A stretch of DNA of 64,000 bases. Origin: a virus. Location: positions 62,001 through 126,000 of IMG/VR virus record IMGVR_UViG_3300027985_000286; one strand, given 5' to 3'. Position numbers and translations under genes: made by a program. The notes beneath the pieces were generated by a model. It saw nothing but the letters and a program-made list of their open reading frames with translations. It was not told the origin of the DNA and searched no databases. How positions within the stretch are numbered: position 1 is the first letter of the stretch; each line of letters starts with the position of its first letter. This document shows positions 4,389-43,523 of the stretch, piece after piece.

Positions 4389-6155
4389 ATGACAACGAAT
4401 TTTGATACTGGCGTCCCTTCGCTTGACCCGTCTGTTATCAAGGCTTCACTAAGAGAATTCCTTAAAGGCCAGTCAGAGTTCTCTTCGTACAACTTTGAAG
4501 GTTCTGCTTTGTCGACAATCCTTGATCTGTTGACTAAGAACACCCATTACCTGGCCTTTGTTGCTAACATGCTTGCTCGCGAATCGTTCTTGGGTAGAGC
4601 ACAACTACGCAGAAACGTGGTAGAGCACGCTCAGAGGTTGTCTTACCGCCCTGGATCAAAAACCTGTTCGACAATTGAGGTAACGGTTGTCATTACGCCT
4701 GCTTCTGGAACAACTGTATTTCCAACCTTTATCACCATGTCCCCGAATACGCAGTTTTCTGGTCAGTATGATACTGAGGTTGTGCACTTCACGAATCAGG
4801 AAGAGTATACGCTATACAAGAATACAGATAACACTTACTCTCATTCTGGTGTAATCCTAAAGCAAGGTGACCTTGTCAACGAGACGTTCACTGTCACGAG
4901 TGATTCAAGGTTTGTGATTTCCAACCCAAACATTGATGTGTCTACTTTGCGCGTTACTGTTCAAAACAGCGCTACAGATACAAACCTAGTACCATTCACA
5001 GAAGCTACGTCTATCGTAGATGTTGGTCCTACAAGCACCGTCTATTTCCTATATGAGGACGATGATGAGAAGTTCCGTATTGAGTTCGGTGACGATGTTC
5101 TAGGAAAGAGTCTGAGCATTGGTAACGTAGTGAACGTTGAGTACATGGCTGTGAATTCTGACACCATTGCTAATGGCATTGATGCTCTTACGATGATTTC
5201 TGACATTGACGGTTTCGTTGACGCGGCTGTTACTCCAGACTCCCCTGCTTACGGTGGATCAGAAAGAGAGACTATTGAGCAGATTAGACGTTGGGCCCCT
5301 CTAGGCTGGGAGTCTCAAGACCGGTCGGTTACTGAGAGTGATTACGTTGTCAACCTAATGCGGTTATTCCCGCAGGCTAAGTCAGCTATCAGCTGGGGTG
5401 GTGAGGATAACGACCCACCCATGTACGGTAGCGTCTACATTGCAGTGAATACGAAAGACGGCTTGCCGTTGGTCGATAACGTTAAAGAAGCAATTAAGGC
5501 GCTTCTCAAAAAGACCAACGTTGGTTCGATTACACCCATCATCGTTGACCCAGATTACGGCGACCTTGATCTGAGTGTGTCTGTTGCTTACGACTCTACT
5601 AAGAGCTTAGGCTCTATGGCAGACGAGTTTAATGCAGTGTCCTTGATCTGTGTTTCGTACTCAGCTGACTACCTTGAAGATTTCAACCGTAATTTCATTA
5701 ACTCTGATCTTGTCGCAAAAGTGAAGGCTAGACCTGCAGTAGTGTCTTGCGATATTACCACCACTCTTACCAAAAAGGTTACTGTGGTAGAGGGTATTGA
5801 AGGTAGGTACATCGTTAAGTTCAATAACCCTATCACGGAAGGGAGCGTTGATGGTACTGGGTTTGCTGTCCTTCCCAATAGCACAGATACCAGATTGTAC
5901 GATGATGGCGCAGGAACGCTTCTAATTGATAGATTGGACGGTGGTGTTAGAAAGGTTATAGTAGAGAACGCAGGTACCGTTGACTACACTACCGGAGAGG
6001 TAGATGTCACGTTCTACCCAATCTCTGTGACAGACACAGACTCCACCGTTAGCATCACGGTTACCCCTTCTGATACTAACATCCTGGCTGTTCAGAAGGA
6101 TATCTTAAGAATCAACAGCGTAGGCGTAACAGAAAACACGAAGCTTAGGAGATGA
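4389..6155 (+). CDS. 6: Baseplate wedge protein gp6
   Basis: A 588-residue protein (T4 gp6 has 660). N-terminal segments such as LREFLKGQSEFSSYNFEGSA and YLAFVANMLARESFLGRAQL, and RRWAPLGWESQDRSVTESDY in the middle, are characteristic of gp6 / gpJ-type wedge proteins. gp6 forms the continuous inner ring of the baseplate and triggers contraction together with gp25 and gp53. AGAGGTAAC precedes the ATG and a late promoter lies 26 bases upstream, so it can be transcribed apart from gp25. Confidence 0.9.
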   Translation: MTTNFDTGVPSLDPSVIKASLREFLKGQSEFSSYNFEGSALSTILDLLTKNTHYLAFVANMLARESFLGRAQLRRNVVEHAQRLSYRPGSKTCSTIEVTVVITPASGTTVFPTFITMSPNTQFSGQYDTEVVHFTNQEEYTLYKNTDNTYSHSGVILKQGDLVNETFTVTSDSRFVISNPNIDVSTLRVTVQNSATDTNLVPFTEATSIVDVGPTSTVYFLYEDDDEKFRIEFGDDVLGKSLSIGNVVNVEYMAVNSDTIANGIDALTMISDIDGFVDAAVTPDSPAYGGSERETIEQIRRWAPLGWESQDRSVTESDYVVNLMRLFPQAKSAISWGGEDNDPPMYGSVYIAVNTKDGLPLVDNVKEAIKALLKKTNVGSITPIIVDPDYGDLDLSVSVAYDSTKSLGSMADEFNAVSLICVSYSADYLEDFNRNFINSDLVAKVKARPAVVSCDITTTLTKKVTVVEGIEGRYIVKFNNPITEGSVDGTGFAVLPNSTDTRLYDDGAGTLLIDRLDGGVRKVIVENAGTVDYTTGEVDVTFYPISVTDTDSTVSITVTPSDTNILAVQKDILRINSVGVTENTKLRR

Positions 6156-6161
6156 AATCGT

Positions 6162-6169
6162 CTTAAATA
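6162..6169 (+). promoter_or_regulatory. Late promoter box
   Basis: CTTAAATA lies 36 bases before the ATG at 6205 and matches the TTAAATA class found upstream of other virion genes in this window. Confidence 0.55.
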
Positions 6170-6204
6170 TCAATAGCTATTCTTAGGATATTAGGGACGA
6201 ATCA

Positions 6205-6621
6205 ATGACATTCTGGGACTTCCTGTGGACTTTTTGGACCAACGATGGTTGGTTGTTTTCATTTATCTTCATACTATTCATTGCCTTTGTTAAGATCTTC
6301 AACTTTGTAAAGCTTGCTCTTCTTGTTAGACACCTCCCTGATGAAAGAACCAGGCAGGATATGAAGAACACCTTCGACGAGCTCAGGATTGCGAATACAC
6401 TAGCTAGGAATGAAATCGAGAACCTGCACAACCGAGTAATGGATACAAAGACGTTACTTGGAGAATTAAATAGTGACATAGCCGAGCTCAACCAAAGGAT
6501 AAGCAGAAGCAGAAGACTGCTCGTAGAGAAAAAGAAACTCACCAGTATTGCAAAGGACGACCTGCAAGAGGTGATTGACGTGTTGGACGGTTACAGTGAC
6601 TGGAACAGCGACAACAAGTAA
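6205..6621 (+). CDS. Membrane-anchored coiled-coil protein, unknown
   Basis: A 138-residue protein I do not recognise. Residues 15-40 form one strongly hydrophobic membrane segment (LFSFIFILFIAFV), followed by a charged coiled coil from about 50 to 115. The topology suggests an inner-membrane anchor with a long helix on one side. It sits between baseplate genes 6 and the next wedge-type gene, under its own late box, and is followed by a second coiled-coil protein with a membrane segment at the opposite end. A lysis role (holin/spanin type) is possible, but nothing in the sequence proves it. Confidence 0.6.
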   Translation: MTFWDFLWTFWTNDGWLFSFIFILFIAFVKIFNFVKLALLVRHLPDERTRQDMKNTFDELRIANTLARNEIENLHNRVMDTKTLLGELNSDIAELNQRISRSRRLLVEKKKLTSIAKDDLQEVIDVLDGYSDWNSDNK

Positions 6622-6982
6622 CATCACTCAATACAGGGTGGAGCAACTTTCCACCACGATTGAGCACATAGGAAAATCACTTGAGAAACTACAAGAGACG
6701 CAAGGTTCTCTTGTGGAAACTGTTAACCGTCTGTCTGTTCAGATGCAGATGGTGCTAGAAATCAGAAAAACAGTCAGCGAGCACGATAGGTCAATCACTG
6801 AACTGCAAACACGTATGACTGCGATGGAGACTGCGGCTGAATCTATCAAGACACTAACTGCTGCAGTTAACCGACACACTTGGGTTAATCAGCTTGGTAT
6901 CTGGGTAGTGAGTCTCATTGTGTCTTCTTTGTTTGGTCTAGGTGTATGGTTTCTCCAGAACGCCATAGCTAATTCACCATAA
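6596..6982 (+). CDS. Coiled-coil protein with C-terminal membrane segment, XhlA-like
   Basis: A 128-residue protein with a heptad-rich coil (about 12-92) and one C-terminal membrane segment (about 100-121, GIWVVSLIVSSLFGLGVWF). This arrangement resembles XhlA-type haemolysin/holin accessory proteins, though I see no diagnostic motif. The start is uncertain: GTG 6596 and GTG 6638 are both possible and no strong ribosome site decides; TTG 6575 is also in frame. It overlaps the preceding gene in another frame. The inverse topology of the two neighbours suggests they work together. Confidence 0.5.
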   Translation: MTGTATTSNITQYRVEQLSTTIEHIGKSLEKLQETQGSLVETVNRLSVQMQMVLEIRKTVSEHDRSITELQTRMTAMETAAESIKTLTAAVNRHTWVNQLGIWVVSLIVSSLFGLGVWFLQNAIANSP

Positions 6983-6991
6983 GGTCCTAAC

Positions 6992-8503
6992 GTGGCAAAA
7001 AGTGTAACTCTGTCAAAACTGATTGCCCAGCAAGTACCAGGGCACGTTAGAAAGAACTACGATACGTTCGTCAAGTTCTTAGAGTATTACTACGAGTGGC
7101 TTGAGCAGAAATACGGTCCCACTGACGTTATCAGAAATTGGGAGACGTACGGATCTGTTGACTCTGATGTAGACGAGTTTGTCAACGAGTTCAAGAGCGA
7201 AACGCTCTACTCTTTGCCTCTGAGTATCGTGGGTGATAAGAGACGACTTCTTCTACATGCTCGCGAGTTTCTCAAAACTAAGGGCACAGAAAGATCATTT
7301 AAGTTCCTTTTTCGTATCCTGTTCAATGAAGATGTTGATCTGTACTTGCCCAAAGAGAACATCTTCCGTCTGTCTGATGGTGACTGGGTCAAGAACGATA
7401 ATGTGATTGTAGCTACCTCTATTAACGACCCGTCCACGTTCCTGTATAAGAGAATTAAGCAGGTGCGTGTGATTAACGAGTTCCTCACAGAGGAAGCATC
7501 AGCTCTAGTTATCAAAGCTGAAAGGTATCGCAGGGACAAGATTGTCAGAAATAGGTTCTTTGTTTCTGATGTGCGAGGTGTATTCAAAGATACACATCCT
7601 GTCTTTCTAGAATCTGATGAAGGAACGTACGAGTATCTTTACCCTATTGTGACTAGCGTCGATATTACTACTGCAGGGACAGGTTACATCAAAGGGGATA
7701 CTATCAGCTTAGACGGGACAGCGCAGTGGGTTGTATCAGGAACGCTGAACATTGCTAAGATTTTTGATACAAAGGTCACCTCTCTTCTAGCTGCATCTGA
7801 TATTGTTGTCAAAGTCAATACTGTGACAACAACCAGCTTCACGTTCGATGGTAGATACATCACATTAAGCTCTTACGCTGAAGGCGACGATGTTGAGGTG
7901 CTGTTTCCTTCTGTTACTGGTTACGTTGAGGTTGATGGTGTTGACTCTACGGGTGGCATTGTTCAAACACGAATCTATGACTTCCCTATTGGGTACCCAA
8001 CGTCACCCACCTACTCAATTACATCTAGAACTGGTTCTGGCGCTGTCTTACAGGTGAACGTGGGTACAGTAGGGTATGTGGCTGGGTACTACATTGGCAG
8101 CAAAGGAATGCCGTCTTCAACCAATTTCTTGCAAGACAGTCTGTATTACCAGGAATACTCCTACGTCATACGAGCATCCAGGTCAGTTGACACCTACGCA
8201 AGCATCGTAAAGCAACTATTGCATCCTGCTGGTATGATGATGTTTGGTGAGATTAGCATCCTGTCTCTTATTTCAATGATTATTCGAGACATGAAGAGTT
8301 ACGTCGATGTGGTTGTACTGTACGGTTCGTATGTACTGGTTACATCAGAAGCCTTGCACAGCAGGGTGATGACATACGATAAGCATAAAACTGCAGTAGA
8401 CCTTGATGTAAATACATACGAAAACTTTACCATACAGTCCGTCTTGAATAACTACAGAACGAAATGGGATTATGGACTCCCAGTAACAGTTACTATCCAA
8501 TAA
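6992..8503 (+). CDS. Baseplate or tail structural protein, gp7-like
   Basis: A 503-residue protein. The N-terminus (VRKNYDTFVKFLEYYYEWLE) and the segment LLLHAREFLKTKGTERSFKF recur in virion proteins of distant T4 relatives placed after gp6. T4 gp7 has 1032 residues, so orthology with gp7 is uncertain. The middle contains a Gly-rich beta segment (TTAGTGYIKGDTISLDG) like the modules in the gp8-like and sheath proteins. The C-terminal 100 residues contain short helices. The position after gp6 and before the fibre genes supports a peripheral baseplate role. Confidence 0.55.
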   Translation: MAKSVTLSKLIAQQVPGHVRKNYDTFVKFLEYYYEWLEQKYGPTDVIRNWETYGSVDSDVDEFVNEFKSETLYSLPLSIVGDKRRLLLHAREFLKTKGTERSFKFLFRILFNEDVDLYLPKENIFRLSDGDWVKNDNVIVATSINDPSTFLYKRIKQVRVINEFLTEEASALVIKAERYRRDKIVRNRFFVSDVRGVFKDTHPVFLESDEGTYEYLYPIVTSVDITTAGTGYIKGDTISLDGTAQWVVSGTLNIAKIFDTKVTSLLAASDIVVKVNTVTTTSFTFDGRYITLSSYAEGDDVEVLFPSVTGYVEVDGVDSTGGIVQTRIYDFPIGYPTSPTYSITSRTGSGAVLQVNVGTVGYVAGYYIGSKGMPSSTNFLQDSLYYQEYSYVIRASRSVDTYASIVKQLLHPAGMMMFGEISILSLISMIIRDMKSYVDVVVLYGSYVLVTSEALHSRVMTYDKHKTAVDLDVNTYENFTIQSVLNNYRTKWDYGLPVTVTIQ

Positions 8504-8513
8504 CGAGGAAACA

Positions 8514-8861
8514 ATGAAAGCTCTAAAATCAAGTAACTGGGTTGATCTCCCTGTTGTGGGACCACCAATTGATGGCGCATACTACGTGCTCGAAGGTACT
8601 TACACGATTACTGTGCCTGCTGGCGCTCAAATGGTGAGCTTTATCTGCAAAACAGGTACTGCGTACGTGATGGAAAGCCAGACAGATGCAGAAGTTTTGC
8701 CTACTCCCTGGCCTCCTGCTTCAAACGAAACAACCGGATTCCCTTGGGCTCCTCTAGCGGCATCTACTTCTTACGAGTATGGTGAATACGCGGTGGCACC
8801 GGGACAGAAGTTGCGTCTGTCCGTGCTGGCCACCAGCTCCGTGCAGGTGCTGTTCAGCTGA
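8514..8861 (+). CDS. Small virion-type protein, unknown
   Basis: A 115-residue beta-rich protein I do not recognise (TITVPAGAQMVSFICKTGTA, ending in VLATSSVQVLFS). GAGGAAACA precedes the ATG. Its position between a wedge protein and a lectin-like protein suggests a fibre or baseplate accessory. Base composition changes inside this gene: the last 70 bases are GC-rich like the next gene, whereas the first part matches the phage. The stop overlaps the next ATG (TGATG). Confidence 0.6.
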   Translation: MKALKSSNWVDLPVVGPPIDGAYYVLEGTYTITVPAGAQMVSFICKTGTAYVMESQTDAEVLPTPWPPASNETTGFPWAPLAASTSYEYGEYAVAPGQKLRLSVLATSSVQVLFS

Positions 8862-9502
8862 TGGCCCGGCGACTCGGGACAGGGACAGGGAGCGGACGCG
8901 CTCGTTTCCACGGCGAGCACAGTGGAGGTAGCGGGTTATTCCTGCTCGACACGTTCACGGACAACGACGGGGTGTTGTTGACGGCCCACGCGCCGGAGGT
9001 TGGTGTGGCCTGGAACCCGGTTTACGGTTCGTCTGCGTCACCAACGATTGCGAATAACCGATTGCACGGAAACGGCACAGTGACGGCGGAATACATGGTT
9101 TCCACGGGTCTCGCACCGAGCGCCGACTATTCCGTGGCCGGTCAGTTCACCTATCTGACCGGAATTGGTGGAGACATGATTGGAGTGCTCGGCCGTGTCT
9201 CAACAGATGCGCAGACGTGGTACAAATTCGACTACTACGGCGGCGCTTTCAGGCTCGTCAAGCGGGTTGATGGTGTCGATGAGATCCTCGCGTCATTTCC
9301 GTTGATCCCGTCAGCAGGCGATACCAAAACAATTACGCTGACTATGGTTGGGACCAGTATTGTCGGCTACCTGGACGGCGCGCCCATTGCGTCTGCGGTG
9401 AATGGTGCGATTGTCGCCGCCGGTCACCCGGGCCTGGTGACGCGCTATTCGACTCCGACGACGGGCTGCGTACTCGATTGGATTCAGGCGGATGCGGCCT
9501 AA
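8861..9502 (+). CDS. Lectin-fold putative receptor-binding protein, GC-rich
   Basis: A 213-residue protein: a Gly-rich N-terminus (GTGSGRARFHGEHSGGSG) followed by a domain with the pattern of concanavalin A/LamG lectin folds (DTFTDNDGVLLTAHAPEVG; later YKFDYYGGAFRLVKRVDG). Such domains bind sugars, so a role in host recognition on the tail is likely. The gene is visibly richer in G+C than its neighbours and uses codons ending in C or G much more often, which points to recent acquisition from a GC-rich source. It is coupled to both neighbours by overlapping stop and start codons. Confidence 0.65.
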   Translation: MARRLGTGTGSGRARFHGEHSGGSGLFLLDTFTDNDGVLLTAHAPEVGVAWNPVYGSSASPTIANNRLHGNGTVTAEYMVSTGLAPSADYSVAGQFTYLTGIGGDMIGVLGRVSTDAQTWYKFDYYGGAFRLVKRVDGVDEILASFPLIPSAGDTKTITLTMVGTSIVGYLDGAPIASAVNGAIVAAGHPGLVTRYSTPTTGCVLDWIQADAA

Positions 9503-9597
9503 TGACTGACCGCCTCATCACCGGCTACATCTACCTCCTCGCCGCGCTCTCCAGCGCGATGGGGGGACCGGGGTGGAGTGCAATGGGCATCTGCTGA
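9502..9597 (+). CDS. Small membrane peptide or gene remnant
   Basis: A 31-residue open frame whose ATG overlaps the stop of the lectin-like gene (TAATG). It reads MTDRLITGYIYLLAALSSAM and continues with GGPGWSAMGIC, with one hydrophobic stretch. It shares the high GC content of the gene before it. It may be the start of a longer gene truncated at the right edge of the transferred segment. No function can be assigned. Confidence 0.35.
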   Translation: MTDRLITGYIYLLAALSSAMGGPGWSAMGIC

Positions 9598-9613
9598 AAT
9601 GCAGGCCAGAGTC

Positions 9614-9637
9614 GTCCAGGTGATCTAAAATCTGGAC
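9614..9637 (+). terminator. Hairpin at right edge of GC-rich segment
   Basis: GTCCAG (9614-9619) pairs with CTGGAC (9632-9637) around a 12-base AT-rich loop. There is no T run after it, so termination is uncertain. It lies between the GC-rich insert and the next late promoter. Confidence 0.3.
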
Positions 9638-9639
9638 GC

Positions 9640-9668
9640 CTTACCTATAAGTAATAAATACAGGTAAG
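9640..9668 (+). promoter_or_regulatory. Late promoter within inverted repeat
   Basis: ATAAATA at 9654-9660 is a late-type box 34 bases before the ATG at 9694. It lies in the 15-base loop of a 7-bp inverted repeat, CTTACCT (9640-9646) and AGGTAAG (9662-9668). Confidence 0.5.
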
Positions 9669-9693
9669 ATTGCTCACATAGAGAAGAACTCAA

Positions 9694-11637
9694 ATGTCAT
9701 ATACTGGTGCACAACCAAGATACGCAAGACTAGAAACAGAATCCTTCGACGCTGACGGATCTACTGGTACTTTTGCTCTTACCTACGCCCCAGGTGTACC
9801 TGAGGGTATCTTAGTCTTTCTAGATAACGTCTTTCAAGAACCTAGGGTATCGTATACTGTATCCGGTAAGACACTTGTATTTGTAGGTGCCAATCCATCT
9901 GGACGACTCATTGTTATGTACCGTGGTATTGAGGGCGGCTCTGTTATCGAAGGATCGGTCAACATCTATGGAGACTATCCACTAGTTGGATCCCCGACTA
10001 ACCTAGGACAGTTCCTAACCCAGGTTAATAGCGGAATTCTGGGAGTGGTAGTTGCTGATAGAACTGCCGCGGAGGCTCTTCCGATCATTAATGGACTCAA
10101 AGTTCATATTAAGTCTGAAGATGGGGGTGATTTCATCCTAGAAACAGCAAACTCACCATACACAAGTGACGGCGGTTCTTACTGCGGTACAATAATTGCT
10201 CTAAGCGGTGGTACTGCAGGTCTTGTTCGAGTAAGACAGTCTAATTCTGTAGATATTACTTGGTATGGTGCATTTCCAACAGACGGAAGCACCACACCAG
10301 ATTGCTCTACTGCACTTACCTTGGCTTACAATGCTGTTTCATCTTCTGTGAGCGGGACTGACCCCACCAGGGTTTACTCTACTGGTGGCGAGATTATTTT
10401 TACCGCAGATGACAAGAAACGGCACTACTACTTTGCATCGGGTAGCTCTACTCTCCTGCTAACCTCTGACTTCATTACAATTCGAGGGTTGGGTGGACCG
10501 GTTATTCACAACCTTTCTGGTAATCCTGTTTTTGCTGTGGGAGACGGTTACTCTAACCTAGGACTTTGGATGACAACAAGCGAGCCGTCATTTGTTACTA
10601 TCTCTGACCTGATGATCTTCGATTATGCCGGCGGTGATCAGATTGAAGTGAGGGGTGGGCACTTCATCACGATCACCAACTTACTACTGAGAGGCAACGA
10701 TGCCAACACAATTGCAAGAAACGGTGGTATTAGAGCTAGACAGTTCCAGTGGCTAACTGTATCGCACAATCGTATTGAAGGGTTCAACGATTACGGAATT
10801 CTTGTCGAAACTGGCGACCAGCAAATAGACCATTTTCACTGCAACTCGAACAGCATATCTATTGGTGGTACGTTGTCTCTAGGTACAGAGGCTGCAGGTC
10901 TGTCTGTTAAAGGTCATAAGACTCTGGGTGCCATTGACTGGTCAATTGGAGACCTAACAGTATCTGCAGAAGTGTATGACCAGGCAACTTACGGAATAAA
11001 GATACAAGGTTACAGTGATTACACCTTCACTGCTGCTTCAATCAACAAGCCTGTTATCGAAGTCTTGAATATCGGTCACCTTGGACTAGAGTCTGTCGGT
11101 TACGGTATTTTCAACTCTCAAGGTGGTGCTATTAACATTGGTTCTCTTGACCATACGTCAAATGGTCACACCTACAGGTTGTATGATACAAACGGTTCGC
11201 CTTACTGTGAGACAGTAATTAGCGTGTTCAGCTCTCAAGGTGCATCTGCGCAGACTTGGTCTGGTGCTGGAACACCGCTGTTGTTCGCACCAAACAATAG
11301 TAGGCTCACACTAGGTATTGCTCGTGGTAGAGCAGTTGGGAGTATCTACTTTGCATCAACCCAATCTTTTACCAATATTGTCTTCTTGAGCACCGTTTAC
11401 GGTCCGTCTGGAAGTGAGTTCTACTACAGGAAATCAGGGTCGGTAACAATCACTGCCGCATCTACAACCTACGTTCTAGCTCACGGAGTGCTGAAAGCCC
11501 CTGAAAGGTACCATTTGCACCCTTCCTGGGATACTACTGTATTTGTGACTGCTGTAGACGATACGTCCATCTACATTTCGTTCGGCACAGCACCTGGGGT
11601 TGATTCTACACTCAGATGGGCTGCGAGCATCATCTAG
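9694..11637 (+). CDS. Tailspike or tail fibre with beta-helix
   Basis: A 647-residue protein. Residues 1-90 form an attachment-type domain (FDADGSTGTFALTYAPG; ILVFLDNVFQEPRVSYTVSG) also seen at the start of other phage fibre and appendage proteins. From about 240 to 560 the sequence has repeated short strands with N, G and D turns (ITIRGLGG, ITISDLM-like, ITNLLLRGN, LTVSHNRIEG), as in right-handed parallel beta-helix tailspikes of the pectate-lyase type. It probably binds or cuts surface polysaccharide; no catalytic residues can be named. It has its own late promoter. Confidence 0.7.
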   Translation: MSYTGAQPRYARLETESFDADGSTGTFALTYAPGVPEGILVFLDNVFQEPRVSYTVSGKTLVFVGANPSGRLIVMYRGIEGGSVIEGSVNIYGDYPLVGSPTNLGQFLTQVNSGILGVVVADRTAAEALPIINGLKVHIKSEDGGDFILETANSPYTSDGGSYCGTIIALSGGTAGLVRVRQSNSVDITWYGAFPTDGSTTPDCSTALTLAYNAVSSSVSGTDPTRVYSTGGEIIFTADDKKRHYYFASGSSTLLLTSDFITIRGLGGPVIHNLSGNPVFAVGDGYSNLGLWMTTSEPSFVTISDLMIFDYAGGDQIEVRGGHFITITNLLLRGNDANTIARNGGIRARQFQWLTVSHNRIEGFNDYGILVETGDQQIDHFHCNSNSISIGGTLSLGTEAAGLSVKGHKTLGAIDWSIGDLTVSAEVYDQATYGIKIQGYSDYTFTAASINKPVIEVLNIGHLGLESVGYGIFNSQGGAINIGSLDHTSNGHTYRLYDTNGSPYCETVISVFSSQGASAQTWSGAGTPLLFAPNNSRLTLGIARGRAVGSIYFASTQSFTNIVFLSTVYGPSGSEFYYRKSGSVTITAASTTYVLAHGVLKAPERYHLHPSWDTTVFVTAVDDTSIYISFGTAPGVDSTLRWAASII

Positions 11638-11658
11638 CCAATTAGAAGGCTGTTCTTA

Positions 11659-11665
11659 CTAAATA
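11659..11665 (+). promoter_or_regulatory. Late promoter box
   Basis: CTAAATA lies 26 bases before the ATG at 11692, with AGGAGA as ribosome site between. Confidence 0.5.
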
Positions 11666-11691
11666 GAATAAACCATTGTTAGGAGAAAATC

Positions 11692-11961
11692 ATGGCTGCA
11701 CCAGTTCGTAAAGTAAAAGAAAACAACACAACTGTCAGACTTCCTGACGGTACCACGTATAACAGAGCAACCAACGCGGCTGCGGTTACTGCTGCGATTG
11801 CAACCACTGCAACGGTTGATGCGACACTCAATACTGGTGGAACTACTGCAGAGAGACCAGTTGCTCCGGTGACCTATCAGAGCTTCTTCGACACCACTCT
11901 GGGTAAGCCAGTTTGGTACGATGGCGCAGGATGGGTTGACGCAACTGGTACGACTGCGTAA
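11692..11961 (+). CDS. Small virion decoration or fibre-associated protein
   Basis: An 89-residue protein. The C-terminal half (GGTTAERPVAPVTYQSFFDT then TLGKPVWYDGAGWVDATG) is a short module known from the ends of many phage capsid-decoration and fibre proteins. The N-terminal half is polar and rich in Thr and Ala. It stands alone between a late promoter and a terminator, so it is one transcription unit and is probably made in quantity. The exact role is unknown. Confidence 0.6.
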   Translation: MAAPVRKVKENNTTVRLPDGTTYNRATNAAAVTAAIATTATVDATLNTGGTTAERPVAPVTYQSFFDTTLGKPVWYDGAGWVDATGTTA

Positions 11962-11984
11962 GCAGTACGCGCCTAAAGTTGTAG

Positions 11985-12011
11985 GAAAGGGGCTAAGGCC
12001 CCTTTCTTTTT
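11985..12011 (+). terminator. Rho-independent terminator
   Basis: GAAAGGGGC (11985-11993) pairs perfectly with GCCCCTTTC (11998-12006) around a TAAG loop and is followed by TTTTT. It closes the unit of the 89-residue protein; the next late box starts right after it. Confidence 0.9.
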
Positions 12012-12019
12012 GTTAAATA
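12012..12019 (+). promoter_or_regulatory. Late promoter box
   Basis: GTTAAATA immediately follows the terminator and precedes the gp8-like ATG by 29 bases, which makes a promoter here necessary and likely. Confidence 0.65.
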
Positions 12020-12048
12020 CATGAAACCGTACCAACTGAGAGATTATT

Positions 12049-13380
12049 ATGGCCTCTATCATTACCACCCAGATTAGAAACTTCAACATTCAGCAAAACA
12101 AGGAAGCTTTTTCTGAAGTAGGCGCAGATAGGTTGTACCTCTTTGTTGGCAGAACTACTGCTTGGGCAGACGAACAGGTGCCGACTGTTCCTGTTGATTC
12201 AACCTGGACGTTCTTGGATGCTTACCGAAATATGGTGGGTCTCAAGTTGATTAACGCTTCAGATATCATCACCGTATGCAGACGGTTTGACTGGGAAGTG
12301 AATACAATCTACGACCAGTTTGATGATCTGGTTAACATGACCAACGGTTTCTCAATTGATGATACTAGCTTCCCGGTATTCTACGTTCTTACCGATGAGC
12401 TCAACGTCTACAAGTGCATCGATAACAACGGTAATTCTCTTTCAACAGTCAAGCCAACAGGTAACTCAGTGTCTTCCTTTGAGACTGCGGACGGCTATGT
12501 TTGGAAGTATATGTTTTCTCTAAAGACCACTGACGTATTCAACTTCCTTACCACAGATTGGATGCCTGTTGTGACTCTAAATGTCACAGACGGATCGACC
12601 CAATGGACCATCCAACAGAACGCGGTTCCTGGTGCTATTGAATCTATTGTCATTGAACAGGCAGGGCTAGGGTATGATGACGTACTCCTCCCTATCCTCA
12701 CAATCACAGGTGACGGTACTGGTGCGGAAGCCGCGGCTGAGGTAGATCCAGTTACTGGAGCGATCACAAAGATCAGAATGACTAACGTTGGTAGCGGATA
12801 CACGTATGCAGATGTGGCAATTGACGCCAACGGATCTGCCGGGGCTGGCGGTGTTGCGCGTGCAATTATGAGCCCTTCAGGAGGTCATGGTGCTGACCCA
12901 ATCGAAGAACTGGGTGGGTACTACATCATGGTTGCTACCAAGCTCGAAGGAGATGAAGGCGGTAAGATCCCTGAGACAATCGAGTTCCGACAGCTAGGTC
13001 TAGTAGCTAACCCTCTGTCTACCACCTTAGGGAAAAGAATTGGCTTTAGTGGTCTTGCAGGGTGTTTTGATATCGGAGACACAGTCACCGGTAGTGGTTC
13101 TGGTGCCACAGGAACTATCGTTAGTGTCAACTTGTCTGACGGATACATGGATGTCAACGTGACAGCAGGGTCATTCCTTGTTGGCGAAACGGTCACGTCC
13201 GGCGTATCTTCTGCTACCGTAGATTATGCGGTTGACACCTACCTGCCGCTGAGTGCGCTCACTGCTGCACTAGCTGACATTATCTCTGGGTCAGGAAAGA
13301 TGCTGTACCTTGAAAACAGAGTAAAGATTACCAGAAACGTAGGTCAGAATGAGCTAATTAAGTTTGTGATTGAAGGGTAA
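12049..13380 (+). CDS. 8: Baseplate wedge protein gp8-like
   Basis: A 443-residue protein (T4 gp8 has 334). The N-terminal part contains AFSEVGADRLYLFVGRTTAW, VYKCIDNNGNSLSTVKPTG and ADGYVWKYMFSL, the pattern of gp8 in cyanophages and T4. gp8 dimerises in the wedge and contacts gp7. From about residue 200 to 280 there is an inserted pair of Gly-rich modules (AGLGYDDVLLPILTITGDG; NVGSGYT), which probably explains the extra length. It is flanked by a terminator and a late promoter. Confidence 0.75.
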   Translation: MASIITTQIRNFNIQQNKEAFSEVGADRLYLFVGRTTAWADEQVPTVPVDSTWTFLDAYRNMVGLKLINASDIITVCRRFDWEVNTIYDQFDDLVNMTNGFSIDDTSFPVFYVLTDELNVYKCIDNNGNSLSTVKPTGNSVSSFETADGYVWKYMFSLKTTDVFNFLTTDWMPVVTLNVTDGSTQWTIQQNAVPGAIESIVIEQAGLGYDDVLLPILTITGDGTGAEAAAEVDPVTGAITKIRMTNVGSGYTYADVAIDANGSAGAGGVARAIMSPSGGHGADPIEELGGYYIMVATKLEGDEGGKIPETIEFRQLGLVANPLSTTLGKRIGFSGLAGCFDIGDTVTGSGSGATGTIVSVNLSDGYMDVNVTAGSFLVGETVTSGVSSATVDYAVDTYLPLSALTAALADIISGSGKMLYLENRVKITRNVGQNELIKFVIEG

Positions 13381-13383
13381 CGC

Positions 13384-13391
13384 ATTAAATA
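13384..13391 (+). promoter_or_regulatory. Late promoter box
   Basis: ATTAAATA starts three bases after the gp8-like stop and lies 38 bases before the ATG at 13430; GGAG precedes that ATG. Confidence 0.55.
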
Positions 13392-13429
13392 CAAGCAGAT
13401 AACAACCAATGCTCTGATACGGAGTTAAC

Positions 13430-16400
13430 ATGGCGATCAATGAAAGCACTTCCCCTTATCATAATGACTATGATGAGGACAAGCAGTTTCTAAAAATCCT
13501 GTTCAAGCCTTCTGTAGCTGTTCAGGTTAGGGAAATGAACCAGCTACAGACTTTCCTGCAGAAGCAGGTCTCTAGACTGGGTGATCACTTCTTCGTTGAA
13601 GGCTCGATGGTGATTCCTGGTGAGGTCAACTACGATCTGGCCTTTGCATACGCAAAGCTCACCCTTGTTGATCCTTACGAAGATGTCGCTGCAGCTATTC
13701 TTAACGCAGGTGTTACGGTTGAAGGCACTGGTGGTCTTACTGCCGACGTCCTAGATTTCGTCAACGCTTCGGGCGCAGACCCTATCACGGTTTACTTGAA
13801 GTACAATGGTTCTGGCACTACAGGTGAGGTCTCTGCGTTTACTACTGCATCTACGATTACGTTCAAGGATTCTCTGGGCAACACCATCACCACAGCGACT
13901 GTTGATGAGACTGGTTTTGGTTCAAAAGTCAGTGTCAATCGGGGCATCTACTACATCAACGGGCAGTTTGTTCTAGTTACCGACCAGAATGTGATTGTTG
14001 AGAAGTACAGCCCAACGCCTACCAAGAAGGTGGGCCTGGTGTTTTCTGAGTCTGTTGTGACTGCGTTTGACGACGATTCTCTTCTTGACAATGCTCTGGG
14101 TACACCTAACTACACTGCACCCGGCGCCGACCGTTCTAAGATGACGGTAACCCTCACATCGTTGGATGTTGCGGACACTACATCTAATTTTGTTGAGCTT
14201 ATTAGGTTTGATGCTGGTAATGTGGAGAACCTTGTCGATAAGACTCAATACTCCATCCTTGCTGATACTCTTGCTCGAAGAACGTTTGACCAGTCTGGTG
14301 ATTTTACGGTTAACCCGTTCAACATTGTGCTCGCTGATCATCCCACAGATACCACTAAAATTCGAGTCGGTTTGGAGCCAGGAAAGGCGTACGTCAAAGG
14401 TTATGAGATTGGTACAACTGCAACACAGTATGTCAACGTCAATAAGGCTAGAGACACTGAATTGTTCAACAATTCTGTGACAATTGCTGAATTCGGAAAT
14501 TATGTTCTTGTTGAATCAGCGTACGGTTTGCCAGACGTTGCTACTTGTGACGAGATTGAGTTCTACACTGGTGCTGTAACTGTACCAGGATCAATGCCTA
14601 GTGGTACAAAGATTGCCACTGCCTACGTTCGTCATATCGAACAGATTAGCGCAACACAGTGGAAGATTTACGTTTTTGGTATTACAGGATCAATCGCTAC
14701 AGCGGTTTCTGTGTATGTCCCTGATACCTACGTTCCGTTTACAGGAACTCTGGTGCCGGATGTCTCTGGAAATAACCTCTACAGCTCAACTAACGGTTCG
14801 TACATTTTCCAGTCCCCACACACTAATGTCAAGACTCTTCTGGACGGGTTCGGAGCAACAGATACCAACTTTGTGGTAATGCGCAAGTATGACGTTACCG
14901 CAGATAGCTCAGCCAACGTCATTTTGACTGCAGGTACAGACGAGCTGTTCAGCGAATACTCTATTACGAATTACGTTCTCACTACAGTTGCGGGCGAGAT
15001 TGTTGATCTTACCGGTAAGGTGACTCGCGGTGGATCTCCTACAGGTACGCAGGTTACCATTGCTCTCGGTGCAGGGTACGAGAGCGTTAACGTGCGTGTG
15101 ATTGCTGCCGTTATTAGACAGGTTGCTCTTCAAAAGTCTAAGACTGTCCAGACTCAGGTCATCCCTGGTTCAGCTCTTGCTGCAGGTTTCCTATCTCTGG
15201 GTAAAGCAGACATCATTTCTCTTACTTCGGTGATTGATGACTCGACTTCCCAGGATATTACCAGCTCTTTCACTCTAGACAACGGACAGAGACGGTCCTA
15301 CTATGACCTAGGCTCAATCCAGCTCAAGGCAGGATATCCAACTCCCGCTTCAACAGTTACTGTGACGTTTGATTACTTCCAGCACAGCCCCGGTGATTAC
15401 TTCAGCGTGGACTCGTACTCAGTTATTGACTACGCTGATATTCCTACGTTCGTTGATGGTACCACCACATACAAGCTAACGGACTGCTTCGACTTCAGAC
15501 CTCGTATCAATGATGCTGGGACTGGTTTCAGTGGAACTGGTTCTTCCGTGGGTAACACAGTAAAGCCTGCAGGGTACATCACTGCAGACATTACCACCTA
15601 CTTGCCAAGAAAGGACAAGGTGTACCTAGACTACCGTGGTAACTTTGGTGTTGTTGAGGGTACTTCAGACCTTGATCCTAAAGAGCCACAAGACCCGAAC
15701 GATTCGATGGTTTTGTATAAGCTCTACGTCAACCCGTATACGGTTGACTCAAAAGACCTGGTTGTCACCTATGTCGAGAATAAGCGATACACCATGAGGG
15801 ACATTGGTAAGATTGAAAAGAGAGTAGATAACCTCGAATACTACACCGCGCTAAATGAGCTCGAAAAGAAAACTGTAGACCAGCAGGTGATTGACCCTGT
15901 TACCGGGAACGATAGGTATAAGAACGGGTTCTTTGCTGATCCGTTTGTTGACCATGCGATTGGTGACTTTGGGTCTTCAGAGGTACGGTGCTCTGTTGAT
16001 GAAGCCAACAGTATCCTGAGAGCTGAGTTTGATGCACAAGGTATCGACCTTGCGTTTGATGCTGCAGCTTCTACCAACGTTGAACAGCACGGCGACCTTA
16101 TCACTCTTCCGTTTGTTGACAGCGTGCTCATTAGTCAGCCACTGGCAACCCATTCCGTCAACGTGAACCCATACGACATCTTTGCGTGGATTGGGCGACT
16201 TGGCTTGACGCCTTCTTCGGACTATTGGGTTGACACTAGATACAAGGACCCGGATGTTACGTACTCTGAGAACGGTAAAAAGACAACTAACACGTGGTTG
16301 AGTTGGGCAACCGGATGGTCAGGGGCTCAGGTTGTTGATGTGAACGATACTGCTGCGTCTCGTTCAATCAACCTGTTCGGTAGAACGATTACTCTTTCTA

Positions 16401-29498: not shown

Positions 29499-29533
29499 CC
29501 AATAGAAAACACAAGACTTGAAGAGGAATGACA

Positions 29534-41666: not shown

Positions 41667-43523
41667 ATGAGCGATAACCTACACTCGAAGTACAAGATGC
41701 TGGACGAGCGCGAGCACGTCCTTATGCGCCCGGGGCGTTACGTAGGAAGTATCAAAGACCACGAAGGGATGTGCTGGGTGATGGATACCTCGAAGAAGAG
41801 GTTCCATCACCAGATAGCAAAGTACAACCCAGCGTTCCTCAAGCTCTTCGATGAAATCATTACCAACTCAGTGGACTTCAGCAAGACACCTGAAGGTAAG
41901 CATCTAGATACCATTGAGGTGACCTGTAACGCAGAGGATGGCTTGATTGAGGTGAAGGACAACGGTGGCATTCCTGTTGTCGTGCACCCAGATTACGGAG
42001 TGTATGTGCCAGAGCTGATTTTCTCCAACCTGCGCGCCGGGTCGAATTTTGACGATACTGAGGACTCTGTAGGAGCAGGGCAGAACGGAGAAGGTGCTGC
42101 CCTGGTGGCAATCTTCAGCAAAGAGTTCCGTGTGAAGACTTGTGACGGAAAGAACTCTTTTGTCCAGGAGTACACTGAAAACCTGCTCTACAGGACAGCG
42201 CCTGTAGTAACCAAGTCTGGCGAGCGTGGTACTACCATCAGTTACCGGGCGGACTGTAGTACCCTAGGTACCAGGTTCGAGGATAGCGTTCACGCTATTG
42301 TTCGTCGGGTGTATGATGTTGCAGGCACTAACCCTAAACTCAAGGTGTTTCTTAACGGTCAGCGAATCGGACCGTTCAAGAGTTTTGGTGATTACGTGCT
42401 CCACTGCTACGGAGGCGGTGACGCATCTGACCTTGTGTTCGAAGAGCAGAAGGACTGGCGAGTGGGGGTTAGCGTATCTGACGATGGCTTCCAGCACATT
42501 TCATTTGTCAACTGTACTGAGACCAAAATCGGTGGTTCTCACGTTAACCATGTAGCCTATGGTATTGCAAACAAGTTGCGTGACGTGATCTTGAAGAAGC
42601 ACAAGGTTGATGTTAAACCGCAACAGATTATGCAGTACATGCGCATCTTCATTGATGCTACTCTGGTTCGTCCTCGTTATAGCTCTCAGACCAAGGATGA
42701 CCTTATTACCGAGGAACGCGAATTCCAGAGCAAGTTCACCCCAACAGATAAGTTCATTAATCAGGTTTTCACCAGCCCTGTTGTTGAGTCTGTTATGAAC
42801 TGGGTAATGGCAAAGCAGAGAGCGGAAGAGCTTGCAGAGCTGCAGAAGAAGCAGAAGCAGAAGAAAAAAGAGAGGATTGCGCAGCATATTGAGTGTATTG
42901 GAAAGGGAGGCCCCAACAAGCCCCGAGCCTTGCATTTGATGGAGGGGCTGTCTGCGTGCAACAATTTCATCAACGTCTACAACAGTGACATCCACGGCGC
43001 ATACCCTCTGCGCGGTAAGGTCCTTAACGTTCGCGAAGAGAAGCTCTCGGTAATCGCAAAGAACGCTGAGCTGATGAACATTATGGGCATCATGGGTCTC
43101 CAGATTGGAAAGCCGGCAACTGGGCTGAACTACGAGATCATCAGAATTACCACAGACATGGACTACGATGGTATATCCATTGCAGCCATGCTTATTAACT
43201 TTTTCAGCTTCTGGCCAGAACTGTTTGACGATGGTCGTATACAGGTCCTTCAGTCCCCGTTGTACGTTGCTTCTAAGGGTAAGAACGTTCTGCGCTACTA
43301 CTCGACCGAGGAGTACATGGATGATGTGAGCAAGGGTAAGCTCAAGGGGTATACTGTAAACCACATGAAGGGGTTGGGAAGCTTGTCTACTGACGACTAC
43401 GACGAGATGATCAACAACCCTCGTTTCATTATTGTACGTCGTGACCAAGAGGCTGAGAAGTACCTTGACATCGCCTTTGGTAGTGTTTCCCAGAAGCGCA
43501 AGAAGTGGTTGATGGAGAATTAA
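41667..43523 (+). CDS. 39: Type II topoisomerase large subunit (gp39 and gp60 in one chain)
   Basis: A 618-residue protein. The N-terminal GHKL ATPase has DEIITNSVDFSK, EVKDNGGIPV and GAGQNGEGAAL; the transducer follows; the C-terminal part is a TOPRIM domain with MEGLSACNNF and TTDMDYDGISI. In T4 the last part is a separate gene (60). Here the chain is continuous. It pairs with gp52 to relax and decatenate DNA. GGGAGG precedes ATG 41667; the frame extends upstream without a ribosome site. Confidence 0.93.
   Translation: MSDNLHSKYKMLDEREHVLMRPGRYVGSIKDHEGMCWVMDTSKKRFHHQIAKYNPAFLKLFDEIITNSVDFSKTPEGKHLDTIEVTCNAEDGLIEVKDNGGIPVVVHPDYGVYVPELIFSNLRAGSNFDDTEDSVGAGQNGEGAALVAIFSKEFRVKTCDGKNSFVQEYTENLLYRTAPVVTKSGERGTTISYRADCSTLGTRFEDSVHAIVRRVYDVAGTNPKLKVFLNGQRIGPFKSFGDYVLHCYGGGDASDLVFEEQKDWRVGVSVSDDGFQHISFVNCTETKIGGSHVNHVAYGIANKLRDVILKKHKVDVKPQQIMQYMRIFIDATLVRPRYSSQTKDDLITEEREFQSKFTPTDKFINQVFTSPVVESVMNWVMAKQRAEELAELQKKQKQKKKERIAQHIECIGKGGPNKPRALHLMEGLSACNNFINVYNSDIHGAYPLRGKVLNVREEKLSVIAKNAELMNIMGIMGLQIGKPATGLNYEIIRITTDMDYDGISIAAMLINFFSFWPELFDDGRIQVLQSPLYVASKGKNVLRYYSTEEYMDDVSKGKLKGYTVNHMKGLGSLSTDDYDEMINNPRFIIVRRDQEAEKYLDIAFGSVSQKRKKWLMEN

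Follow-up and report, generated by a model that had tools for sequence, protein, structure and literature searches.

A GC-rich segment with a predicted lectin-fold gene between baseplate genes of a T4-like phage, and its probable import

The locus between the wedge gene and gp8

The window analysed here is a stretch of 64,000 nucleotides, comprising bases 62001-126000 of a 149,348-bp virus record, which belongs to a large T4-like myovirus as judged from gp23 (the major capsid gene, at 29528), gp8, gp25-type, gp6-type and further wedge-type genes. Genes are named by their start positions in the window (Table 1). By its wedge gene 6992, the nearest named phage is Pseudomonas phage pf16 (32% identity), and a DNA search of the phage collection with bases 6000-16000 returned no relative at the nucleotide level.

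Table 1. Coordinates of the features in and around the GC-rich segment (positions of the window)
Feature	Position	Strand	Evidence or detail
Baseplate wedge gene, left wall	6992..8503	+	Pfam Baseplate_wedge 3.8e-13; PHROG baseplate wedge
Variable slot, wedge gene to gp8	8504..12048	+	gap compared in 67 relatives
115-aa gene, apparently chimeric	8514..8861	+	codons 1-91 of native composition, 92-115 GC-rich
Left junction of the putatively foreign segment	8787..8790	.	GC3 split best at 8787; GC segment start best at 8790
213-aa protein, predicted concanavalin-A-like (CBM66-like), with disordered Gly/Arg-rich leader	8861..9502	+	model, fold matches, relatives
31-codon GC-rich frame	9502..9597	+	GC3 0.844; start overlaps stop of gene 8861
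Stable hairpin at right edge, without T run	9609..9642	+	fold z -4.0
Late-promoter-like ATAAATAC	9654..9661	+	40 bases before gene 9694
Tail fibre gene, 647 aa, fibre-type N-terminus, beta-helix	9694..11637	+	PHROG tail fiber 1.4e-5; Pfam Beta_helix 0.0098
Small virion structural gene in slot	11692..11961	+	PHROG virion structural protein 2.7e-14
gp8 baseplate wedge gene, right wall	12049..13380	+	Pfam Phage-Gp8 8.7e-14; PHROG 438 6e-105

Gene 8861 is situated among the wedge gene, the fibre gene 9694 and gp8, in a stretch whose contents vary among related phages. The wedge gene is present in 80 of 80 related viral loci, and in the 67 loci where both walls could be placed, all of them distant relatives, the gap between the walls is shorter than 100 bp in 49 and reaches up to 1.35 kb in the others. 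The two occupants tested in these relatives are of the “baseplate wedge tail fiber protein connector” type and of the tail-fibre type; homologues of genes 8514, 8861 and 9694 are absent from the related loci, distant as these are. Changes of slot content are also seen at 73-80% flank identity, where a gene present in locus L029 is missing from L072, and where the difference between loci L009 and L007 begins within the wedge gene and ends just before gp8. Since this last exchange starts within the wedge gene, joins inside genes occur in other phages as well. The largest excess of GC over the flanks in any 400-bp stretch is 0.167 here versus at most 0.113 in the occupied slots of the relatives. 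L044 (8445-8657), as well as L042 and L070, has a 60-bp tandem repeat towards the end of the wedge gene; judging from the blastn pieces, the number of copies seems to vary among near-identical phages.

The arrangement of the genes bears on their expression. Gene 8514 starts ten bases after the wedge gene and is overlapped by gene 8861; a late-promoter motif is seen before neither of the two, hence they are most likely reached by readthrough from upstream. The motif itself is well represented in this phage: TTAAATA was found 12 times upstream of genes (0.5 expected), and NTAAATA(C/G/A) stands at -32 to -54 of its genes, including gp6, gp8 and gp23. Late-promoter-like motifs, most commonly of the form TTAAATAC, precede genes 4389, 9694, 11692, 12049, 13430, 23418, 28737, 29528 and 32311, while the T4 late-promoter form TATAAATA is absent from the window. 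The late promoter that the preliminary description of this DNA placed just after the segment is thus recognizable, as its motif matches that before gp6, gp8 and gp23. The hairpin claimed alongside it is stable (0 of 200 shuffles fold as well), but as a standard rho-independent terminator it fails, given that the T run is missing; the sequence that follows is CCTTACCTATAAG, and a terminator scan did not list the hairpin.

Composition and edges of the GC-rich segment

The segment 8790-9597 had been described as rich in G+C and in G/C third positions, and calculation agrees. By maximum likelihood, the GC segment spans 8790-9617, with a GC content of 0.611 compared to a mean of 0.464, and it constitutes the top 300-, 500- and 800-bp GC window within the 64 kb as well as the top 800-bp window of the whole record (0.614, z 5.5). 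Codon statistics were derived from 175 ORFs of the record, called mechanically (at least 80 codons, longest first), of which a few may be spurious. GC3 averages 0.517 (SD 0.064) across these ORFs and amounts to 0.676 in gene 8861 and 0.875 in the tail of gene 8514 (for the frame at 9502, see Table 1). At constant protein sequence, 144 codons of gene 8861 end in G or C, compared with an expectation of 99.8 (z 6.3); because this statistic is over-dispersed among genes (SD 2.0), the value corresponds to about three standard deviations and to rank 3 of 175. The excess persists with the protein fixed, so amino acid content does not account for the GC of the island. In synonymous codon use, the codon likelihood of gene 8861 (z -5.2) is the second lowest among the 175 ORFs. 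Both GC content and codon use therefore set the segment apart from its genome, and the composition of the window is not uniform.

The flanks are normal or lean the other way (z -2.2 for 8514-8789; z -4.1 for gene 9694). The adjoining fibre gene 9694, with a GC3 of 0.40, ranks fourth lowest of 175, and since its composition is opposite to that of the island, the contents of the slot may be of more than one origin. The second GC peak of the window, at 29.7-30.5 kb, coincides with the gp23 gene and was dropped as a candidate for foreign DNA. Elsewhere in the record, a second foreign-looking gene of 177 aa (L088:2739-3275, minus strand; record about 42739-43275) has the highest GC3 of the 175 ORFs (0.815), and its product, of DNA-binding type, matches HTH_23 weakly and contains a stretch rich in Gly, Ala and Pro. 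A phage-encoded, gyrase B-like subunit of a type II topoisomerase at 41667-43523 of the window is also rich in GC3.

The left edge lies inside a gene, as the preliminary description had supposed. The first 91 codons of gene 8514 have a GC3 of 0.385 and the remaining 24 one of 0.875 (permutation p 0.0004), with the change point at codon 91, base 8787, which is the strongest internal break of the 175 genes; moving the edge to gene boundaries costs 5.7-7.1 log-likelihood units. The right edge falls between about 9566 and 9652, just beyond the 31-codon frame. Starts and stops overlap at 8859-8863 (TGATG, genes 8514 and 8861) and at 9500-9504 (TAATG, gene 8861 and frame 9502). Together with the succession of a tail, a whole gene and a head, these overlaps are most simply read as a piece of a compact operon, in which the frame 9502-9597 is probably the truncated start of the gene that came next in the donor, and both neighbours of gene 8861 would have been cut.

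A homologue of gene 8514 was not found, and a peptide-pattern search for whole versions of the cut neighbours gave no relevant match. Homology between the tail of gene 8514 and the small gene that precedes the Rhizobium phage homologue described below was rejected (shuffle p 0.53). The search for flanking repeats or target-site duplications yielded one 13-bp pair, away from the edges, and no tRNA that might have served as an integration site occurs within the window. Transfer junctions devoid of mobile-element signatures are known from relatives of T4 (PMC2993671).

The product of gene 8861 and its relatives

As a single query against viral and bacterial contigs, the 213-aa protein had no match, and its relatives in viral contigs surfaced only with a Rhizobium phage protein as bridge query. 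This protein, QWY83766 of phage RHph_X3_15 (Schitoviridae), is 33% identical to the 8861 protein and resembles it in length (206 aa), in its short Arg-rich leader and in the FLLDTFTD motif; it differs in belonging to a podovirus, in standing beside a gene annotated as portal, and in a GC3 of 0.27, from which it follows that the protein sequence does not need high GC3. Besides this protein, the best relatives are those in the viral loci L093 (39% identity; locus GC 0.56), L092 (36%; 0.59) and L098 (30%; 0.68), so that the best homologues reside in viral contigs of 56-68% GC, as would have been anticipated from the preliminary description. Relatives are also encoded in a small number of bacterial contigs, at loci of 0.48-0.69 GC. 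A donor of the segment was not found in searches from which records near the window may have been withheld: the best homologue is that of L093, and the phages searched gave no DNA match.

Some relatives of the protein occur in tail-type settings. In L092, the lectin domain ends a GDSL-lipase protein. A short stretch of the L093 homologue is matched (E 4e-3) by two T4-like phages of Stenotrophomonas, BUCT608 and Ps15; in the latter (Menderavirus), the match lies in a cluster where overlapping genes carry the annotations pectate lyase, tail assembly protein and concanavalin-A-like. This adhesin cluster of a related T4-like phage is similar in having the match among overlapping tail-type genes, but it lies at another locus, the domain is part of a larger protein, and the match is weak.

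The fold was predicted from a model built with twelve relatives from viral contigs, a single-sequence fold having been poor (pLDDT 40.5) and set aside. The model is a confident all-beta sandwich (pLDDT 88, pTM 0.85; residues 1-22 unsure), whose two antiparallel sheets correspond, at the level of a prediction, to the concanavalin-A-like lectin/glucanase fold. It thus lends support to the lectin fold that had been proposed for the protein. Among 786 fold matches in the PDB at E <= 0.001, a CBM66 ranks first (E 1.3e-10, TM 0.61/0.77, 15% identity), followed by a Douge baseplate protein, the lectin domain of galactocerebrosidase, glucanases and ERGIC-53; further matches include the Douge central fibre, galectins and the CBM of phage J-1 Dit. 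The proteins matched by the model are largely glycan-binding. Since no Pfam match lies above the cut-off and the likeness to CBM66 is at fold level, the protein is not assigned to the CBM66 family here. In comparison with known structures, the beta-sandwich fold is shared with CBM66 of Bacillus subtilis (4b1m, 4azz) and with BppU and the central fibre of Douge (8zdo, 8zdp), at 11-16% sequence identity. Among viral proteins, an unnamed 206-residue entry is the first fold match, then mostly minor tail and fibre proteins, many of them from Arthrobacter, Rhodococcus, Gordonia and Mycobacterium phages. Weak sequence matches in the PDB to antibody chains were judged to be noise of a beta-rich composition.

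Origin and possible role of the segment

Acquisition by transfer, in the sense of the preliminary description, is well supported by the composition, the codon use, the break inside gene 8514 and the apparently cut neighbours, and it is further backed by the variable, mostly empty slot and by nearest homologues in GC-richer viral contigs. Regarding its age, the description as “recent” holds only insofar as codon use still departs from that of the genome; the segment is not yet ameliorated. The reading we consider probable is that 8790-9617 is a fragment of a virion operon, imported from the phage of a higher-GC host, which delivered an accessory glycan-binding gene. Against it count the modest identity of the best homologue (39%) and the fruitless searches for a donor and for whole versions of the cut neighbours. 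According to this scenario, the segment would have been fused in frame with the 5' portion of gene 8514 by non-homologous or short-homology recombination, as suggested by the shift in composition and by neighbours that look cut, and would have brought in one complete gene, that of the concanavalin-A-like, CBM66-like domain. Expression of gene 8861 would probably be late and depend on readthrough out of the wedge operon and on start/stop coupling to gene 8514, after which the hairpin and the separate late promoter would open the transcription unit of fibre gene 9694. Its product would most likely sit on the tail or baseplate and bind a cell-surface glycan as an accessory adhesin; as the leader is modelled at low confidence, attachment to the virion is a point that we infer.

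Several other explanations have to be weighed. The joins are known from one virus contig record, so that a stretch of another phage might have been misjoined into the metagenomic contig. This is improbable, considering that a misjoin is more often a single switch that persists, while here two joins lie about 800 bases apart inside one operon, the left join is in frame with the reading frame open to its stop, and the insert sits where relatives also vary. It would be similarly surprising if the gene were old in the lineage, its composition being kept by local selection or expression. Some native genes are indeed rich in GC3, such as L086:15667-17697 (z 7.1), and the second GC peak is that of gp23; however, the codon likelihood of the native GC-rich genes is ordinary or good (z 1.8 and 4.2) versus -5.2 for gene 8861, which moreover is found in none of the relatives, and the break lies inside gene 8514, away from its edge.

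Somewhat less remote, albeit still unlikely, is an acquired segment that has no part in host range, the gene being a functionless passenger or encoding a structural or head-proximal decoration protein. The homologue in the Rhizobium phage, which adjoins the annotated portal gene and has no obvious fibre cluster, counts against the import of an adhesin and fits such a reading, as do the lack of a Pfam match above the cut-off and the conjectural docking of the protein on a T4-like baseplate. Conversely, the 8861 frame is whole where its neighbours are apparently cut, the same domain is found in other phage tail-type proteins, including the fusion to a GDSL lipase, and the fold matches of the model are largely glycan-binding proteins. 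We therefore retain the import of an adhesin gene as the preferred reading, and the possible role of the segment as a host-range module, as suggested earlier, is inferred from fold, location and relatives.

Comparable exchanges have been reported. In the Alteromonas phages A5, V22 and P24, receptor-binding genes have moved across unrelated phage families whose genomes are otherwise unshared (PMC10579305); there, a multi-gene module with a proven fibre and a chaperone is concerned, here one small lectin-fold gene of predicted role. T4-like phages possess plastic host-recognition regions with concanavalin-A domains among their contents (PMC7029224), and, as at the present locus, variable tail or baseplate stretches lie between conserved genes and sometimes split the baseplate module, although these islands measure tens of kb and the slot 3.5 kb (PMC7029224, PMC2993671). 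Baseplate domains of such a fold in mycobacteriophage Douge bind cells and mycobacterial glycans (PMC13033339).

That distant phages exchange host-recognition genes is known in broad terms, the junctions being usually blurred. Here, the junctions are legible to tens of bases: one whole gene stands between two that are apparently cut, the left edge appears to form an in-frame chimera, and the two conserved genes around the slot enclose an empty gap in most relatives. The import of this lectin gene would be a clear new instance of the known trading of host-recognition parts—ordinary in kind, unusually legible in form. If true, it would point to a small slot in the baseplate operon of T4-like phages where single adhesin genes are traded, and it would offer a clean way to ask whether the range of cells bound by a phage changes with a single imported lectin.

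A far-reaching extension, to which we assign little probability, is that the slot accepts small free-standing adhesins in general, as a site where they dock, and that the imported leader acts as a portable docking tag on an unrelated baseplate. It derives from L092 (2955-5573), where two adjoining tail-type genes, one with a DUF7483 domain and the other with the GDSL lipase and lectin domain, carry a similar leader (MPGF..FGFG.HP) on different domains; the leader common to both genes is possibly an attachment signal.
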